Assembly: GCA_001820685.1 (NCBI GenBank)
Contig: MHQP01000002.1
Span: 1 to 42,139, forward strand
DNA length: 42,139 nt
Direction of reading: 5' to 3'
Source: Candidatus Sungbacteria bacterium RIFCSPLOWO2_01_FULL_47_32
GTDB lineage: Bacteria > Patescibacteriota > Minisyncoccia > Sungbacterales > GWA2-42-14
A program made the position numbers and the translations under genes. The notes beneath the pieces were generated by a model. It had not been told where the DNA came from and did no database searches. It was given only the letters and a program-made list of their open reading frames with translations. How positions within the stretch are numbered: the first letter of the stretch is position 1; each line of letters begins with the position of its first letter. This document shows positions 3,829-42,139 of the stretch, in pieces.

Positions 3829-4644
3829 GTGAACAAATGCTCAATTCGGCTTTTTGCATATGGCGGACAGGGCATGAAGATGGCCCTTCAGAAGATTGTC
3901 GCTCCCGTGTTGGGAGAAATCGGATACTTCACGCAAGCGTTCCCATTTTTTGGAGGGGAGCGCCGCGGAGCGGTTGTTTCCGGATACCTTCGGTTTTCCA
4001 CGGACAAAATCACAACGCACTCGTTCATTACGGAGCCGGATATTTCTATCTCCTTTGACGAGCGGATACCTTTTGACGCCGTAACGGCCGGCCTTCCGGC
4101 TGGAAAATTTCTGCTCCTTAATACGGCGCTCCCCGCTCGATACGCGCAAGCCGCTATGGACCGAAAAGTTTACACGCTCAATGCCAAGGATATTTCCGTT
4201 TCACACGGGATTGCCAAACCCGAAGACCCGTTCCCGCTTATCAATTCTGCTATGGCGGGAGCCTTCTTTAAGCTCTTTGAATATATTACTGGGCGAACGG
4301 TTCCCGATGAACTTACGCGGCGCATCTTTGAAGGCGCTCTTCCCGTGAAGACGGATGAAAATTTTCTGGCGTTCTCCGACGCAAAACGTTTGGTTCAGCC
4401 TCTTGCCGCAAGTGAAACTCCCGGTGAATATCCTGTATCTCTTTTTCGGGTAACTCAACCGAATGGCCTTTGTACGAAATGCCGCCTGTGCTACATCTTT
4501 TGCTCGAAGCGGGCGATCAGTCTCACTGATAGTGAGGTTCACATTATCAACGAAGCGAAGTGCAACCTCTGCGGGGTGTGCATCAAGCTATGTCCAAGAA
4601 ACGCCATTTCTTTTGAAACCAGCGAACGGGAGGACACGCGATGA
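3829..4644 (+). CDS. 2-oxoacid:ferredoxin oxidoreductase, fused gamma and ferredoxin (delta) subunits
   Basis: 271 residues from a GTG start with AAAAGGA six bases upstream. Residues 1 to about 180 form the gamma domain (FAYGGQGMKMA, FFGGERRGAVVSG). The C-terminal 60 residues carry two [4Fe-4S] motifs, CTKCRLCYIFC and CNLCGVCIKLC, as in the delta subunit. The complex converts 2-oxoacids such as pyruvate to acyl-CoA and CO2 and reduces ferredoxin in the cytoplasm. Gamma and delta are often separate genes; here they are one. The gene overlaps the next by four bases (ATGA), so the three subunits are translationally coupled. Pyruvate is the likely substrate, but the exact oxoacid cannot be read from sequence. 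Confidence 0.88.
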   Translation: MNKCSIRLFAYGGQGMKMALQKIVAPVLGEIGYFTQAFPFFGGERRGAVVSGYLRFSTDKITTHSFITEPDISISFDERIPFDAVTAGLPAGKFLLLNTALPARYAQAAMDRKVYTLNAKDISVSHGIAKPEDPFPLINSAMAGAFFKLFEYITGRTVPDELTRRIFEGALPVKTDENFLAFSDAKRLVQPLAASETPGEYPVSLFRVTQPNGLCTKCRLCYIFCSKRAISLTDSEVHIINEAKCNLCGVCIKLCPRNAISFETSEREDTR

Positions 4645-37262: not shown

Positions 37263-37300
37263 AAAAGACGGCTTGATAAAAAGCCGTCTTTTCTTATTTT
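37263..37300 (+). terminator. Terminator of the metzincin-like gene
   Basis: AAAAGACGGCTT (37263-37274), GATAAA loop, AAGCCGTCTTTT (37281-37292), then a T-rich tail. Confidence 0.85.
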
Positions 37301-37339
37301 CTCTTCATCTCGCCTCCACGCATTTGGGGCAGGGAGGTT

Positions 37340-37368
37340 TTGTTTATGGGCTTATTTTGGGCTATAAT
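37340..37368 (+). promoter_or_regulatory. Promoter of the MFS gene
   Basis: TTGTTT (37340-37345), 17 bases, TATAAT (37363-37368). The ATG at 37375 begins six bases after the -10, so the transcript should be leaderless. Confidence 0.7.
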
Positions 37369-37374
37369 AGGGCC

Positions 37375-38028
37375 ATGAAATCAATATTTAGCTTGGAATT
37401 CCCGAAATTGAACCAGGTTGTTCTTATTATTATTTTTGCCGACTTCATGATAACAACGGCGGCCGGCCTTGTTATTCCCGTCATGGCTCTTTTTTTCGTT
37501 GAAGATATTCCGGGCGCGACCGCTTCCACCGTCGGTTTTGCGATTGCTCTGTATTGGATCATAAAGTCAATTTTACAAATTCCCATCGCTCGCTGGCTTG
37601 ATAGGAATTACGGAGAGATGGACGACTACTACGCGATGCTCCTCGGTATTTTTATTGTAACGGTCGGAGCGTTCTTGTATTATTTTGCGCGGGAGGTGTG
37701 GCATATTTACGCGCTTCAGGTTCTGATAGCGGTCGGCGACTCGTTTGCAACTCCGCCGTTCTATGCCATCTTCACCCGCCACATCGACAAAAACAACGAA
37801 GGGTTCGAATGGGCGCTCCGCTCAAGTTTTTCTTTCGGTATGGGGTCTGCCATCGGCGGAGTGCTTTCCGCAATACTCGTCGGGGTCATCGGGGTGAGGT
37901 CTCTTTTTCTTGTTAACGGCTTTCTTATGCTCCTTGGTTTTATTATTATGCTTTTTTTGAAGCCGTATATTCTGCCGAAAGTTCAGAGTGTCGGGCAGGG
38001 GATTATTATGGAGCAGAAGCGTCTTTGA
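37375..38028 (+). CDS. Half-size MFS-type transporter
   Basis: 217 residues from the ATG at 37375; the longer open frame back to 37273 crosses the promoter and terminator and is not used. About six membrane helices: LNQVVLIIIFADFMITTAAG first, then GFAIALYWIIKSILQIPIAR with the MFS-like loop ARWLDRNYG, and GMGSAIGGVLSAILVGVIG later. Normal MFS proteins have twelve helices, so this is either half of an ancestral protein or a natural six-helix form that dimerises. Its last 13 codons lie in a 45-bp direct repeat whose second copy is at 39608-39652. Confidence 0.75.
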   Translation: MKSIFSLEFPKLNQVVLIIIFADFMITTAAGLVIPVMALFFVEDIPGATASTVGFAIALYWIIKSILQIPIARWLDRNYGEMDDYYAMLLGIFIVTVGAFLYYFAREVWHIYALQVLIAVGDSFATPPFYAIFTRHIDKNNEGFEWALRSSFSFGMGSAIGGVLSAILVGVIGVRSLFLVNGFLMLLGFIIMLFLKPYILPKVQSVGQGIIMEQKRL

Positions 38029-38124: not shown

Positions 38125-39603
38125 ATGGAAAATCAGCAGTTACTTGATTACGTCAAGCAGCAGTTACAACAAGGCGCGGACAGGGAGACAATAAAAACTT
38201 TCCTCACGGCTCAAGGAGAGCAAGAACAAGCCATCAATGAAGCTTTTCAGGCGGCAACACCCGTCTTTGTAGCTTTTCTAAAAAAGAAAAAGTGGAAGAA
38301 AATAGTTCTAATCATTGCCGGAGTTATTATTCTTTTGGTTACCACTGTCATCTTCCTCCCCGGCGTTCTCGGCCTTTTTGCAAAAGATGTTCCTCCTATA
38401 AATGACTCCGACATTCTTCTAAAAAAAATCAGCGTTCCTAACAGTGAGAATGCATACTTTGATTTGACCAAATTGAATAACAACCTTTACGAGCCCGAAG
38501 GAAAATCAGAACTTGTCGTAAATATGGCCGCGGGCAAGTCGTGGGACGAGGCTGTTGCAGAAGAAATTGTAACTCGAAATTCTGAATTTTTTGAATATTT
38601 TGCAGAAGCGGCCAGAAAATCAAAGTTTCAGGATCCGGTCTCGGCTGATCCAGCGAAGATGACACCAAATGCGGTTTTGCCCTCGTTGAACTCGTGGCGC
38701 AGAATGGCTCGTTTGAGTGCTATACGTGCCATGTTTTTGGCTAAACAAGGAAAAGACAAAGAAGCGATTGAAGAAGCACTAAATTCAGTGAAAATTGGCC
38801 AAAAAATTCAAGAGTCCCAGGTTTTACTCATTGAATACGTTGTAGCGATTTTGATGAAGGGCACCGGACTAGAAGCCATACAAAGAATAGTTACATCGTC
38901 GAAATTAAACGGTTCGAAATTGGCCAGCTATGCTCAAGAGTTAAATGCCTTTTATAAAAACGAGGACGGCTTAATAAATTCTTTCAAAGCAGAATACCTT
39001 TTTCAGTCTTGGGCAGTAGACTTTCTTGCAAGCGGAAATAAAGAAGCGCTACAAGAGATTGTCGGTGAAAAAGAAAGCGAGAATCCTGAAATTGCAGGAA
39101 AGGTAAAAAATAGCTACTACTTTCAGCCAAACAAAACGAAACTAACCTTCGCAGAATACGCTCGCCAAAACATTAAAATAGCGAACCAGCCCTGCGGAGA
39201 GATTAAAGTAGCTGAAGTCCCGCGGCTCGCTCCAACCAGCCCCGCAAAGCTCTACGCAGAGGAAAATGCGATTGGCAAGGTTTTGCATGATGTTATTGCC
39301 GCAAGTCCAGCAACTATAAGTACGAAAAAATGCGAAGAAGATTTACTAGTTGCGGCGACACAAGCCATCGTGGCTATCAAGGCATACAAAAACGATAATG
39401 GAAATTATCCAACTTCTCTCAACGACTTAGTGCCGCGCTATCTTTCCTCTGTCCCAACCGACTTCTTTGACGGTAGACCGTTAAAGTATTCTTCTGTGAA
39501 GAAAATTGTTTATTCTGTGGGTCAGGGCTTACAGGATTTAGGCGGGAGTACGGGAAGCGATTGGCATAAGATGCCAAACCCCACATTCAAAATTGATTTT
39601 TGA
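38125..39603 (+). CDS. Membrane-anchored protein with pseudopilin-like C-terminus
   Basis: 492 residues. Residues 1-45 (LLDYVKQQLQQGADRETIK, then LTAQGEQEQAINEAF) look like a small helical domain often seen at N-termini of Patescibacteria membrane proteins. One membrane helix lies at about 58-85. A long helical region follows with repeat-like stretches (AIRAMFLAKQGKDKEAIEEA). The last 90 residues resemble the C-terminal domain of type II secretion pseudopilins: AIKAYKNDNGNYPTSLNDL, YLSSVPTDFFDGRPLKY, VYSVGQGLQDLGG. The protein is probably exported with its C-terminus outside. The gene lies between the two 45-bp repeats, and its composition is more AT-rich and more NA-codon-rich than its neighbours. 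Confidence 0.75.
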   Translation: MENQQLLDYVKQQLQQGADRETIKTFLTAQGEQEQAINEAFQAATPVFVAFLKKKKWKKIVLIIAGVIILLVTTVIFLPGVLGLFAKDVPPINDSDILLKKISVPNSENAYFDLTKLNNNLYEPEGKSELVVNMAAGKSWDEAVAEEIVTRNSEFFEYFAEAARKSKFQDPVSADPAKMTPNAVLPSLNSWRRMARLSAIRAMFLAKQGKDKEAIEEALNSVKIGQKIQESQVLLIEYVVAILMKGTGLEAIQRIVTSSKLNGSKLASYAQELNAFYKNEDGLINSFKAEYLFQSWAVDFLASGNKEALQEIVGEKESENPEIAGKVKNSYYFQPNKTKLTFAEYARQNIKIANQPCGEIKVAEVPRLAPTSPAKLYAEENAIGKVLHDVIAASPATISTKKCEEDLLVAATQAIVAIKAYKNDNGNYPTSLNDLVPRYLSSVPTDFFDGRPLKYSSVKKIVYSVGQGLQDLGGSTGSDWHKMPNPTFKIDF

Positions 39604-39699: not shown

Positions 39700-39900
39700 T
39701 CCGTTTTGCAATTACCTTGGCACCAAAGTTTGGAATGGTCGGGTTTTCCAATTGCCTCGTACCAATTTTGCGTATATTCCATTACGAAGTGCTTCGTTAT
39801 AATAATTCGTTGTACCGAGCACATAACTTATTGTGTTCTCGGTTAATTGTTTGCGGCCAGTCGTTCCCGCCCTTCAGGCGGGGATTCTGGGCAAACAATT
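39700..39900. other. Gene-free stretch with stacked hairpins
   Basis: TTGGAA/TTCCAA (39730-39735/39746-39751), ACGAAG/CTTCGT (39784-39797), ACCGAG/CTCGGT (39813 to 39842 region), and a large nested hairpin: AATTGTTTGC (39845-39854) with GCAAACAATT (39891-39900), CCAG/CTGG inside and CCCGCC/GGCGGG (39866-39871/39877-39882) at the tip. No open frame that looks coding. It abuts the terminator of the large minus-strand RNA. Confidence 0.6.
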
Positions 39901-39933
39901 AAAAAAGCGGAGAGGTGAGCGTGACCTATCCGC
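39901..39933 (-). terminator. Terminator of the large minus-strand RNA
   Basis: On the minus strand GCGGATAGGT (39924-39933) pairs with ACCTCTCCGC (39907-39916) with one mismatch and is followed by TTTTTT (39901-39906). On the plus strand only an A-run precedes it. Confidence 0.8.
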
Positions 39934-41050
39934 CGTGCTATCGCACTTCCATGCTGTTCATCGTCTGGTCGGTTTTCCCCGGCTTCAGACGGCGCTCAAT
40001 GGCCCGCCCCTTGGTCGGCCTTCTCGGATGGTGCGGACATCCGTGCCTAGCTCATCCGTATTGGCTCCGAGTCGAGCACTTCGGGCCTCACCGCTGTTAT
40101 TTTGCCTCTCCGGCTTCCGCGGAACGAAGACGGAGATTTTGGCGGACCGGGGCCCCGCCTGGAGCAGATGGGGAGGTGTTTCGGTTCCGCACGGCGGAAC
40201 CCTACTCGCCTCGGCATCTTTCCGGTCCATGAACCTCATCGCGGTTTCCCGCGTTGTTGTTTTCTCCCGATGCGGATTTATACCCTCTTGGCGACTCCAG
40301 GACGCTTGGGCCTGGCTGTTCCGCCGGCAAGTTGGGCACTATGCGAACACCCGGAGGACTGGCCTCCGGCGCGCCGCATCGGGATTTCCTGTCTGCTCCG
40401 ATGTCCATCGGAGCAGGTTGGTTTCTGTCCGTCCCGACGGGTATCGGGACGGGTTGGTGTTTCCCCCCCGAGAGGGGAATCCCGGCAAGCACGCGTTCCG
40501 CACCGCCGTTTGTGCGCCGCTTTAAGGCAAGTGGCCAGCCTCGAGACACCCCGTTTCTGGCAGGATTCTCTCGTCCCTTATGCCTGGTTGGGCAGTTTGG
40601 GATCCCCCAGCAACCGAGTTTACAGCCCGGTGCCGAGTGTTGTTCCTCGCGGAAGCCTCGCAGTTCTCCTCTTCGGAGAGCGAGAGCGGTCAGCATAAGC
40701 TCTGGTGCGGTGGGGAGCCGTGGTGTCCCGCCGAAGCGAGGCATTGTCCCCGTGGCCCACCGCAACAGAACAGTCGCCTACACAGAGCGAGTGTCTGCCC
40801 CTTTCGGTTGGCTCCCGCGAGGAAGTTTTGCGAGACGCAGTGAAGGAATCGGACTTCTCCCGCCGCACGTGCACGAAGCACGGACCGTGGGTTCCTATCC
40901 TCCCGCCATGCGGCTTGCCATCCAGCAACCGCGTCTCAAGAACTCGCCTTGTCCGTTCCGCTTTCGGCGGAATTAGGGCTTTGACGGCGAAAAAAATAAA
41001 CGAAATTTTCATTCACTCACTTTTTTCGCTGTCCGGCTAAGCTGGGCTAA

Positions 41051-41065
41051 TCGAGCTAAGCTCGA
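41051..41065. repeat. AGCT-type hairpin (copy 3)
   Basis: TCGAGCT (41051-41057) and AGCTCGA (41059-41065). It is close to the hairpin at 20302-20318, which shares TCGAGCT and AGCTCGA. Confidence 0.6.
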
Positions 41066-41728
41066 CTGTCAGATTTTTAAAAAGTTTTGGTTCGGGAGAG
41101 TGGTTAGCTCTCCCGAACCGATGATGCTGGAGCGGGGCGCTTGGGGCCCCTTTTACGGTGGCCGTGCGCAGAGGAGATCACGCTCCCGCGTTACCGCGCT
41201 TTGCAGCGCACGTACCGGCTCCAGATTTTTTGCGGACTACCAGGCCCATGGCCAAGTAGAGGTTTGTCGACCAGGTTCATCTCGAGGCTGACCTGGTCCA
41301 GTGGAATTTTCACTCCACAACCGTTGCAGCCCTGTGGTGGGAGCCGCATACCGCGTGTTTTTTGGCGGCATCCATCGGGTTTTTACAAGTGATGCAGATG
41401 GATGAGGGTGCTACCCTCAACGGCCGTCGTCGCCCGACAGTCCGTGCCGCCAGTTCGAAAGCCACCAGAAGCAACTTCCGTTGCTCGGTTCCGTCGCCGG
41501 AACCCTCGCTGGTGGCTATTTCCTTCGCCTGATGTGCCTTTCGGCAATCGGCGTGTTTTTCGCTACCGGACTAAGGGGCCGGCTCCCATCGGTGTAAAAC
41601 TGCCGGTCTAAGGGGCCCGGCGCCCATTTTTCGCCAAAGTATCGGCGGAAAAAGCTCATAAAAAACTAACTATTCTCGAACAAATCTGAATTTGTGAATA
41701 CTACTAAATTACGAGCTATTTCCGCCTG

Positions 41729-41764
41729 CCAAGCTTAGCTTGGCCAACCCAGCTAAGCTGGGTT
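41729..41764. repeat. Two adjacent AGCT-type hairpins (copies 4 and 5)
   Basis: CCAAGCT/AGCTTGG (41729-41735/41737-41743) and AACCCAGCT/AGCTGGGTT (41746-41754/41756-41764), each with a one-base centre. Confidence 0.65.
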
Positions 41765-42009
41765 AGTTATGGCTTTATTTTTAAAGGGAGCAAGGAGCAG
41801 GCCGAGGTTATCGGACCCGCCCCGCAGTAATGCTAATCCGCTTTGGGTGGGAAAACGCCATAAAATATCGCATTATGGACTTTTCTCGCGCAAAGAAGAT
41901 TTTTAATGACAGACTTTTATGTGTAGCTTATATAGGGTGTGCTGTCAACCCTGTTAGAGGTTCACCCACGGGGTCAAACCACATAAAACCCCCATAGCAA
42001 TATAATACT

Positions 42010-42037
42010 ATTATATCAAAACCATAGGATTTGTCAA
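42010..42037 (-). promoter_or_regulatory. Promoter of the large minus-strand RNA
   Basis: On the minus strand TTGACA (42032-42037), 16 bases, TATAAT (42010-42015). A second TTGACA lies inside the transcript at 41942-41947 with a weak -10 (TACACA), which may give a shorter RNA. Confidence 0.8.
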
Positions 42038-42112: not shown

Positions 42113-42139
42113 ATGGCAAAACAAATAACCAATGACCAA
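42113..42139 (+). CDS. Start of an unknown gene cut by the window edge
   Basis: ATG at 42113 opens a frame MAKQITNDQ to the window end. TAAAGT (42100-42105) ends seven bases before the ATG, as in the leaderless genes of this window. Nothing can be said about the product. Confidence 0.4.

Follow-up and report, generated by a model that had tools for sequence, protein, structure and literature searches.

We describe a locus near one end of a 42,139-nucleotide stretch of Candidatus Sungbacteria bacterium RIFCSPLOWO2_01_FULL_47_32 (contig MHQP01000002.1; the whole stretch is hereafter the window), whose minus strand, in our reading, encodes a structured non-coding RNA of a new class. This RNA would be large (1.0-2.1 kb) and stand-alone, confined to a single family of Parcubacteria and most likely active in trans as an architectural RNA. 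We give this explanation as a whole a probability of about 0.8. It draws on computational results for the locus and its synteny, the promoter consensus, the excess of folding and its strand bias, the covariation of the core, the non-coding character of the region and the absence of known RNA families from it. The RNA is probably expressed as a single transcript, and it would act in trans, as a scaffold or within a ribonucleoprotein (RNP).

The homologues, window included, lie at one syntenic locus in five genera of a single family (Ca. Sungbacteria and kin). We label them W (the window, genome G000), A (locus L007, genome G003), B (L008, G004), D (L048, G005) and E (L096, G002). A blastn-type search of relatives revealed a 63-nt core with 83-84% identity in A and B, a covariance model of this core (R1) located the fourth homologue, D, and the synteny of the genes polX and MFS led to the fifth, E. 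In G003, G005 and G002 the RNA is flanked by a divergent gene for DNA polymerase X (polX) and by a convergent MFS-type gene. The locus is interrupted by contig ends in G004 and G000, yet remains consistent with the order polX-RNA-MFS, since the MFS gene shares the contig of the RNA and polX begins another one. In nine other genomes of the order, polX and MFS lie some 20-250 nt apart without the RNA. The 830-nt gap between these genes in G011 was rejected as a further homologue, as it has no match to the core models and apparently contains a small open reading frame (ORF).

Beyond the family, a second model (R2) gave no convincing match, whether among 380 genomes of the phylum or in the order, where a single match, in G015, scored 25 bits. 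We did not accept weak matches of R1 (23-28 bits) in G058, G183 and G142; the loci fetched for G058 and G183 have neither polX nor MFS, and their matches are very rich in A and T. A pattern scan for the capped hairpin described below, over 84,980 genomes, matched only the relatives A and B, whose genomes it identified as Parcubacteria group bacterium GW2011_GWA2_42_14 and Candidatus Sungbacteria RIFCSPLOWO2_01_FULL_47_10. The same pattern had no match in IMG/VR, and a nucleotide search of phages and plasmids gave none. The locus is single-copy in the genome of the window which, together with one fixed site across five genera, makes a mobile element unlikely.

The predicted ends of the RNA are marked by sequence signals. 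A preliminary description of the window, made by a model from the letters alone, had proposed a TTGACA-16-TATAAT promoter at the minus-strand start and a 3' hairpin followed by T6, and both were found (Table 1). The upstream promoter, Pa, matches the consensus at 12/12 positions and carries an extended -10 TG. In the same position the match is again 12/12 in A and D, and 11/12 in E, which with the window are all the loci that have upstream sequence. About 90 nt downstream of Pa, a second promoter, Pb, is present in all five homologues, with the equivalents TTGACA-17-TACATA (A and B), TTGACA-17-TATCCT (D) and TTGACT-16-TACAGT (E). Since it is common to the homologues, there are probably two start sites, at about 42003 and 41913. 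Between promoter and terminator, the RNA is predicted to measure approximately 2.0-2.1 kb in the window, 1.3-1.6 kb in A, at least 1.1 kb in B, 1.3 kb in D and 1.0 kb in E. The window copy is the longest, and the extent of about 2.1 kb given in the preliminary description is the upper extreme, the homologues measuring 1.0-1.6 kb.

The region folds far more than expected. In 200-nt windows compared with dinucleotide shuffles, the mean folding z-score is -3.38 on the sense and -2.64 on the antisense strand; 54 control windows from coding parts of this contig average -0.39 and -0.36. This is in line with the dense helices noted before. The z-scores are lower on the sense than on the antisense strand in all five homologues. 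The three-way junction proposed at 41460-41517 is recovered in the minimum free energy (MFE) structure of the full-length RNA, with pair probabilities of about 0.9. Among loops of four bases on stems of at least 5 bp, 8/22 in the window are GNRA or UNCG on the sense strand and 1/18 on the antisense strand; summed over the five homologues, the counts are 11/72 and 3/82. Such tetraloops thus favour the minus strand.

Sequence conservation is concentrated in a hairpin at the 5' end, P1, made of a GC-rich base, an A-tract opposite a U-tract and an upper stem, with the cap ACAAAU-UCAG-AUUUGU-UnGAGAA in three homologues. Over the five orthologues, 87.5% of the cells of the P1 helix are paired and both partners have changed in a compensatory way in 11 of its 24 pairs. 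This level was not attained in any of 500 shuffles, and controls in which the alignment was slid are 41-54% paired. When four paralogous copies are added, the doubly compensated pairs rise to 15/24 (34 cells). The core helix also contains G-U pairs. Two of the paralogous A/U-rich copies are in the window (Table 1), and diverged copies of P1 occur in B as well. Compensatory changes extend to the 3' domain. In a downstream domain common to A and D, the strands CUCGACGCC and GGCGUCGAG are kept as CUCGGCGUC and GACGCCGAG. Between A and B, 10 of 45 predicted pairs differ by a double change, a count that is weak taken alone because it comes from an alignment of two sequences. These compensatory changes indicate selection on the structure. 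The check suggested in the preliminary description, to collect homologues and look for covariation, thus gave homologues in five genera whose substitutions keep base pairs and not codons. Directly after P1, all five homologues have a GGC able to pair with a GCC of the 3' strand of P1, forming an alternative hairpin, P2; it is a guess that the P1 base and P2 may alternate.

Two observations concern repeats within the RNA. The palindrome AGCTWAGCT occurs three times in it, at window positions 41054, 41732 and 41751, and is absent from the rest of the window (0.33 occurrences expected). In A, the RNA homologue contains, at L007:4016-4039 and L007:4496-4531, short repeats that are scattered over the genome G003 (AGCAACACTCAGTGTTGCT; ATGTTTCATGTCACATGTTTCA).

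Table 1. Positions in the window of the RNA, its predicted elements and the neighbouring MFS-type gene.
Feature	Positions	Strand	Basis or remark
Structured non-coding RNA (predicted), from Pb start to 3' terminator	39896..41913	-	Folding z-scores, high-probability MFE, syntenic homologues; to ~42003 if from Pa
Upstream promoter Pa, TTGACA-16-TATAAT with extended -10 TG	42010..42037	-	12/12 sigma-70-like consensus
Downstream promoter Pb, TTGACA-17-TACACA	41920..41948	-	Sequence; directly before conserved 5' sequence
Paralogous A/U hairpin copy 1, GAGAAAAGTCCATAA ... TTATGGCGTTTTC	41840..41895	-	R1 match, 15.8 bits
Conserved 5' core hairpin P1, GGCGGAAATAGCTCGTAA ... TTATGAGCTTTTTCCGCC, cap ACAAAT-TCAG-ATTTGT-TCGAGAA	41624..41734	-	Core identity with L007 and L008; 103.5 bits with R2; covariation
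Alternative hairpin P2, CGCC-GATACTTT-GGCG	41632..41647	-	Reuses 3' strand of P1 base; possible in all five; putative pairing
Three-way junction with two perfect hairpins	41459..41518	-	Full-length MFE, pair probabilities ~0.9
Internal terminator-like hairpin, then AAAACTTTTT	41089..41119	-	Could split transcript
Paralogous A/U hairpin copy 3, GCGAAAAAAGTGAGTGA ... TTTATTTTTTTCGC	40980..41035	-	R1 match, 19.3 bits
3' element AAAACCG(A/T)CC	39967..39976	-	80-93 nt before predicted 3' end in window, L007 and L008; found after the fact
Intrinsic terminator GGCGGATAGGTCACGCTCACCTCTCCGC and T6	39901..39934	-	Sequence; MFE
MFS-type gene, 251 aa	37273..38028	+	MFS_1 5.9e-22; convergent with RNA; syntenic marker; related gene beside RNA in four relatives

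The region does not appear to code for proteins. Its two strands carry overlapping ORFs, the longest of 240 aa, and the nine that we tested had no Pfam match even at E<=1. The conserved nucleotide blocks carry stops and shift frame among the homologues. A protein encoded by ORFs of the homologues was rejected, as the blastp matches fall in inconsistent frames over these blocks. This accords with the preliminary description, which had taken the overlapping frames for non-coding.

The region was also said to resemble none of the known large RNAs, and a search with all models of Rfam 15 (4227 families, including GOLLD, ROOL, OLE and HEARO) indeed found no family at the gathering threshold at the locus. 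In E-value mode there were just weak, far sub-threshold matches to unrelated families, none recurrent across the homologues. Models of group I and group II introns and of ribosomal RNA (rRNA) had no match there. RNase P RNA was discarded as a candidate, its model (RF00010) matching at G000:C22, away from the locus, and also elsewhere in G005 and G002. Likewise, the model of transfer-messenger RNA (tmRNA; RF00023) exceeds its cut-off at G000:C9 and has no match at the RNA locus. For the RNA of the signal recognition particle (SRP), the locus has neither a match to RF00169 nor a motif like domain IV. However, RF00169 at E<=1 matched 0/23 genomes of the order (G000-G022), against 13 of 14 control genomes, so the question of SRP RNA is not settled by locating it elsewhere; it may have been lost or be very diverged in the order. 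In the genome of the window, the match to RNase P RNA extends over some 700 nt (G000:C22:45047-45746) and is thus itself expanded, and in two relatives it reaches only 23-25 bits (G003:C11:61035; G004:C35:6802). These observations accord with the diverged RNase P RNA reported in the candidate phyla radiation (PMC8172020).

Part of the evidence weighs against a single large RNA, or lessens the support for it. Only the 5' hairpin of about 110 nt and a few short blocks can be aligned across the homologues, which are diverged elsewhere, and aligning the five RNAs over their whole length with MAFFT gave nothing usable outside the conserved blocks. With only five homologues and a mostly unalignable body, the demonstration of covariation is limited to the core and to a small number of helices. 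Besides, the alignment used to count P1 pairs was laid by hand along the helix, with the apical part as a fixed loop; such a layout favours the count, which the shuffles and slid controls correct in part. Covariation is also expected of palindromic DNA, and it is only the strand biases (G-U pairs, z-scores and tetraloops) that argue for RNA. Finally, the internal hairpin at 41119-41089, and a 13-bp hairpin near L007:4450 that ends near 4454 and is followed by T7, are possible early ends of the transcript.

These two hairpins are at the heart of the main rival explanation, in which a 5' RNA of about 500-850 nt with the conserved hairpins is terminated internally, then followed by read-through or by a separate 3' RNA. 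The concentration of the strongest conservation in the 5' part speaks for such a pair of RNAs too. We nevertheless find it unlikely, while giving it appreciable weight: neither the window nor A has a good promoter after the internal hairpin, B, D and E lack a convincing internal terminator there on the sense strand, and conservation extends far downstream, with further blocks common to A and B and a domain common to A and D. The 3' element AAAACCG(A/T)CC of W, A and B, found after the fact, points the same way. Much less probable is a cis-acting element, that is a leader, an attenuator or an antisense regulator of a neighbour, switched by the strand that P1 and P2 share. P2 could form in each of the five homologues and is incompatible with the P1 base, the promoters are in tandem and the MFS gene is convergent. 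However, none of the five has its downstream gene on the strand of the RNA, and a terminator comes before that gene, polX is divergent, in the window an ORF of 492 aa separates the RNA from the MFS gene, and a body of 1-2 kb far exceeds the usual attenuator.

One could also regard the locus as a cluster of palindromes that acts at the level of DNA, for example in replication or chromosome organisation, and is transcribed incidentally. The long perfect inverted repeats, the confinement of AGCTWAGCT within the window to the RNA and the dispersed repeats in the L007 copy fit this idea, to which we grant a slightly smaller chance still than to a cis element. It is hard to reconcile with the bias of z-scores (in all five) and tetraloops to the sense strand, the G-U pairs of the core helix, the consensus promoters, the single copy, and the multi-branched structures with asymmetric loops. 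Least probable of all, with only a slight chance, is a degraded mobile element, intron or cluster of pseudogenes. In its favour, only one family has the locus occupied while the sister groups have it empty, the length varies and A contains dispersed repeats; yet there is no Rfam match to introns, rRNA or other families, no trace of Pfam domains, and the compensatory changes show selection.

Coming back to the favoured explanation of one large RNA, two tandem promoters of the housekeeping type would drive its transcription and the intrinsic terminator would end it. The RNA would be strongly transcribed, abundant and active in trans. The A/U-rich hairpin module at the 5' end, present in one to three copies, may be the element that a protein, or another copy of the RNA, recognises, and the fast-evolving, GC-rich body of many helices may serve as a scaffold. 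A body that changes fast yet stays structured, together with a 5' module that is kept and sometimes multiplied, is what one would look for in an architectural RNA that is recognised through such an element. We see about even odds that this is a giant RNA of up to ~2.1 kb, above the size of GOLLD, ROOL and OLE, forming a structural or catalytic particle with recognition through the A/U module.

Some features of the neighbourhood are also worth mentioning. The MFS-type protein has about half the usual length across the order (237-251 aa) and covers about half of MFS_1 (window 37273-38028; L007:5317-6030). The ORF of 492 aa between the MFS gene and the RNA (window 38125-39603, plus strand) was found only in the genome of the window and has no Pfam match. 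On the other side, a frame truncated by the contig end (MAKQITNDQ..., window 42113-42139, plus strand) is divergent from the RNA promoter, hence polX is perhaps not the immediate neighbour in the window.

To our knowledge, bacterial RNAs near such size and complexity, outside rRNA, are few. The Sungbacteria RNA resembles GOLLD in being a large, multi-domain, structured non-coding bacterial RNA; compared with GOLLD RNAs, many of which exceed 800 nt, it is chromosomal beside polX, measures 1.0-2.1 kb and has no Rfam model match. ROOL is another large ornate RNA for which no protein partner is known, and it assembles into RNA-only cages (PMC12286853), a group in which GOLLD is counted as well; the Sungbacteria RNA is longer, has no model match and was not seen in a phage context. 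OLE, of about 600 nt and found mostly in Bacillota (PMC12054373), is likewise a large ornate RNA of one broad bacterial lineage, with a known RNP, and differs in that its model does not match here. RNase P RNA and tmRNA are also large stable RNAs, and both are encoded on other contigs of the genome of the window. We rate the RNA as a categorically new class, although the term 'large ornate RNA' is already in use for a loose descriptive group; like large structured non-coding RNAs in general, themselves a loose group, it has a covarying structure, found here in the core and in selected helices. The open-access literature that we searched describes no such RNA for Parcubacteria or Sungbacteria.

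OLE, GOLLD and ROOL turned out to form unexpected assemblies, and the Sungbacteria RNA is a candidate addition to them from the candidate phyla radiation. It is directly testable, since its locus is defined, promoters and empty sister loci are at hand and there are five homologues that have diverged. These results suggest that the reduced genomes of Parcubacteria retain a costly RNA machine, which appears to be undescribed in the literature searched.
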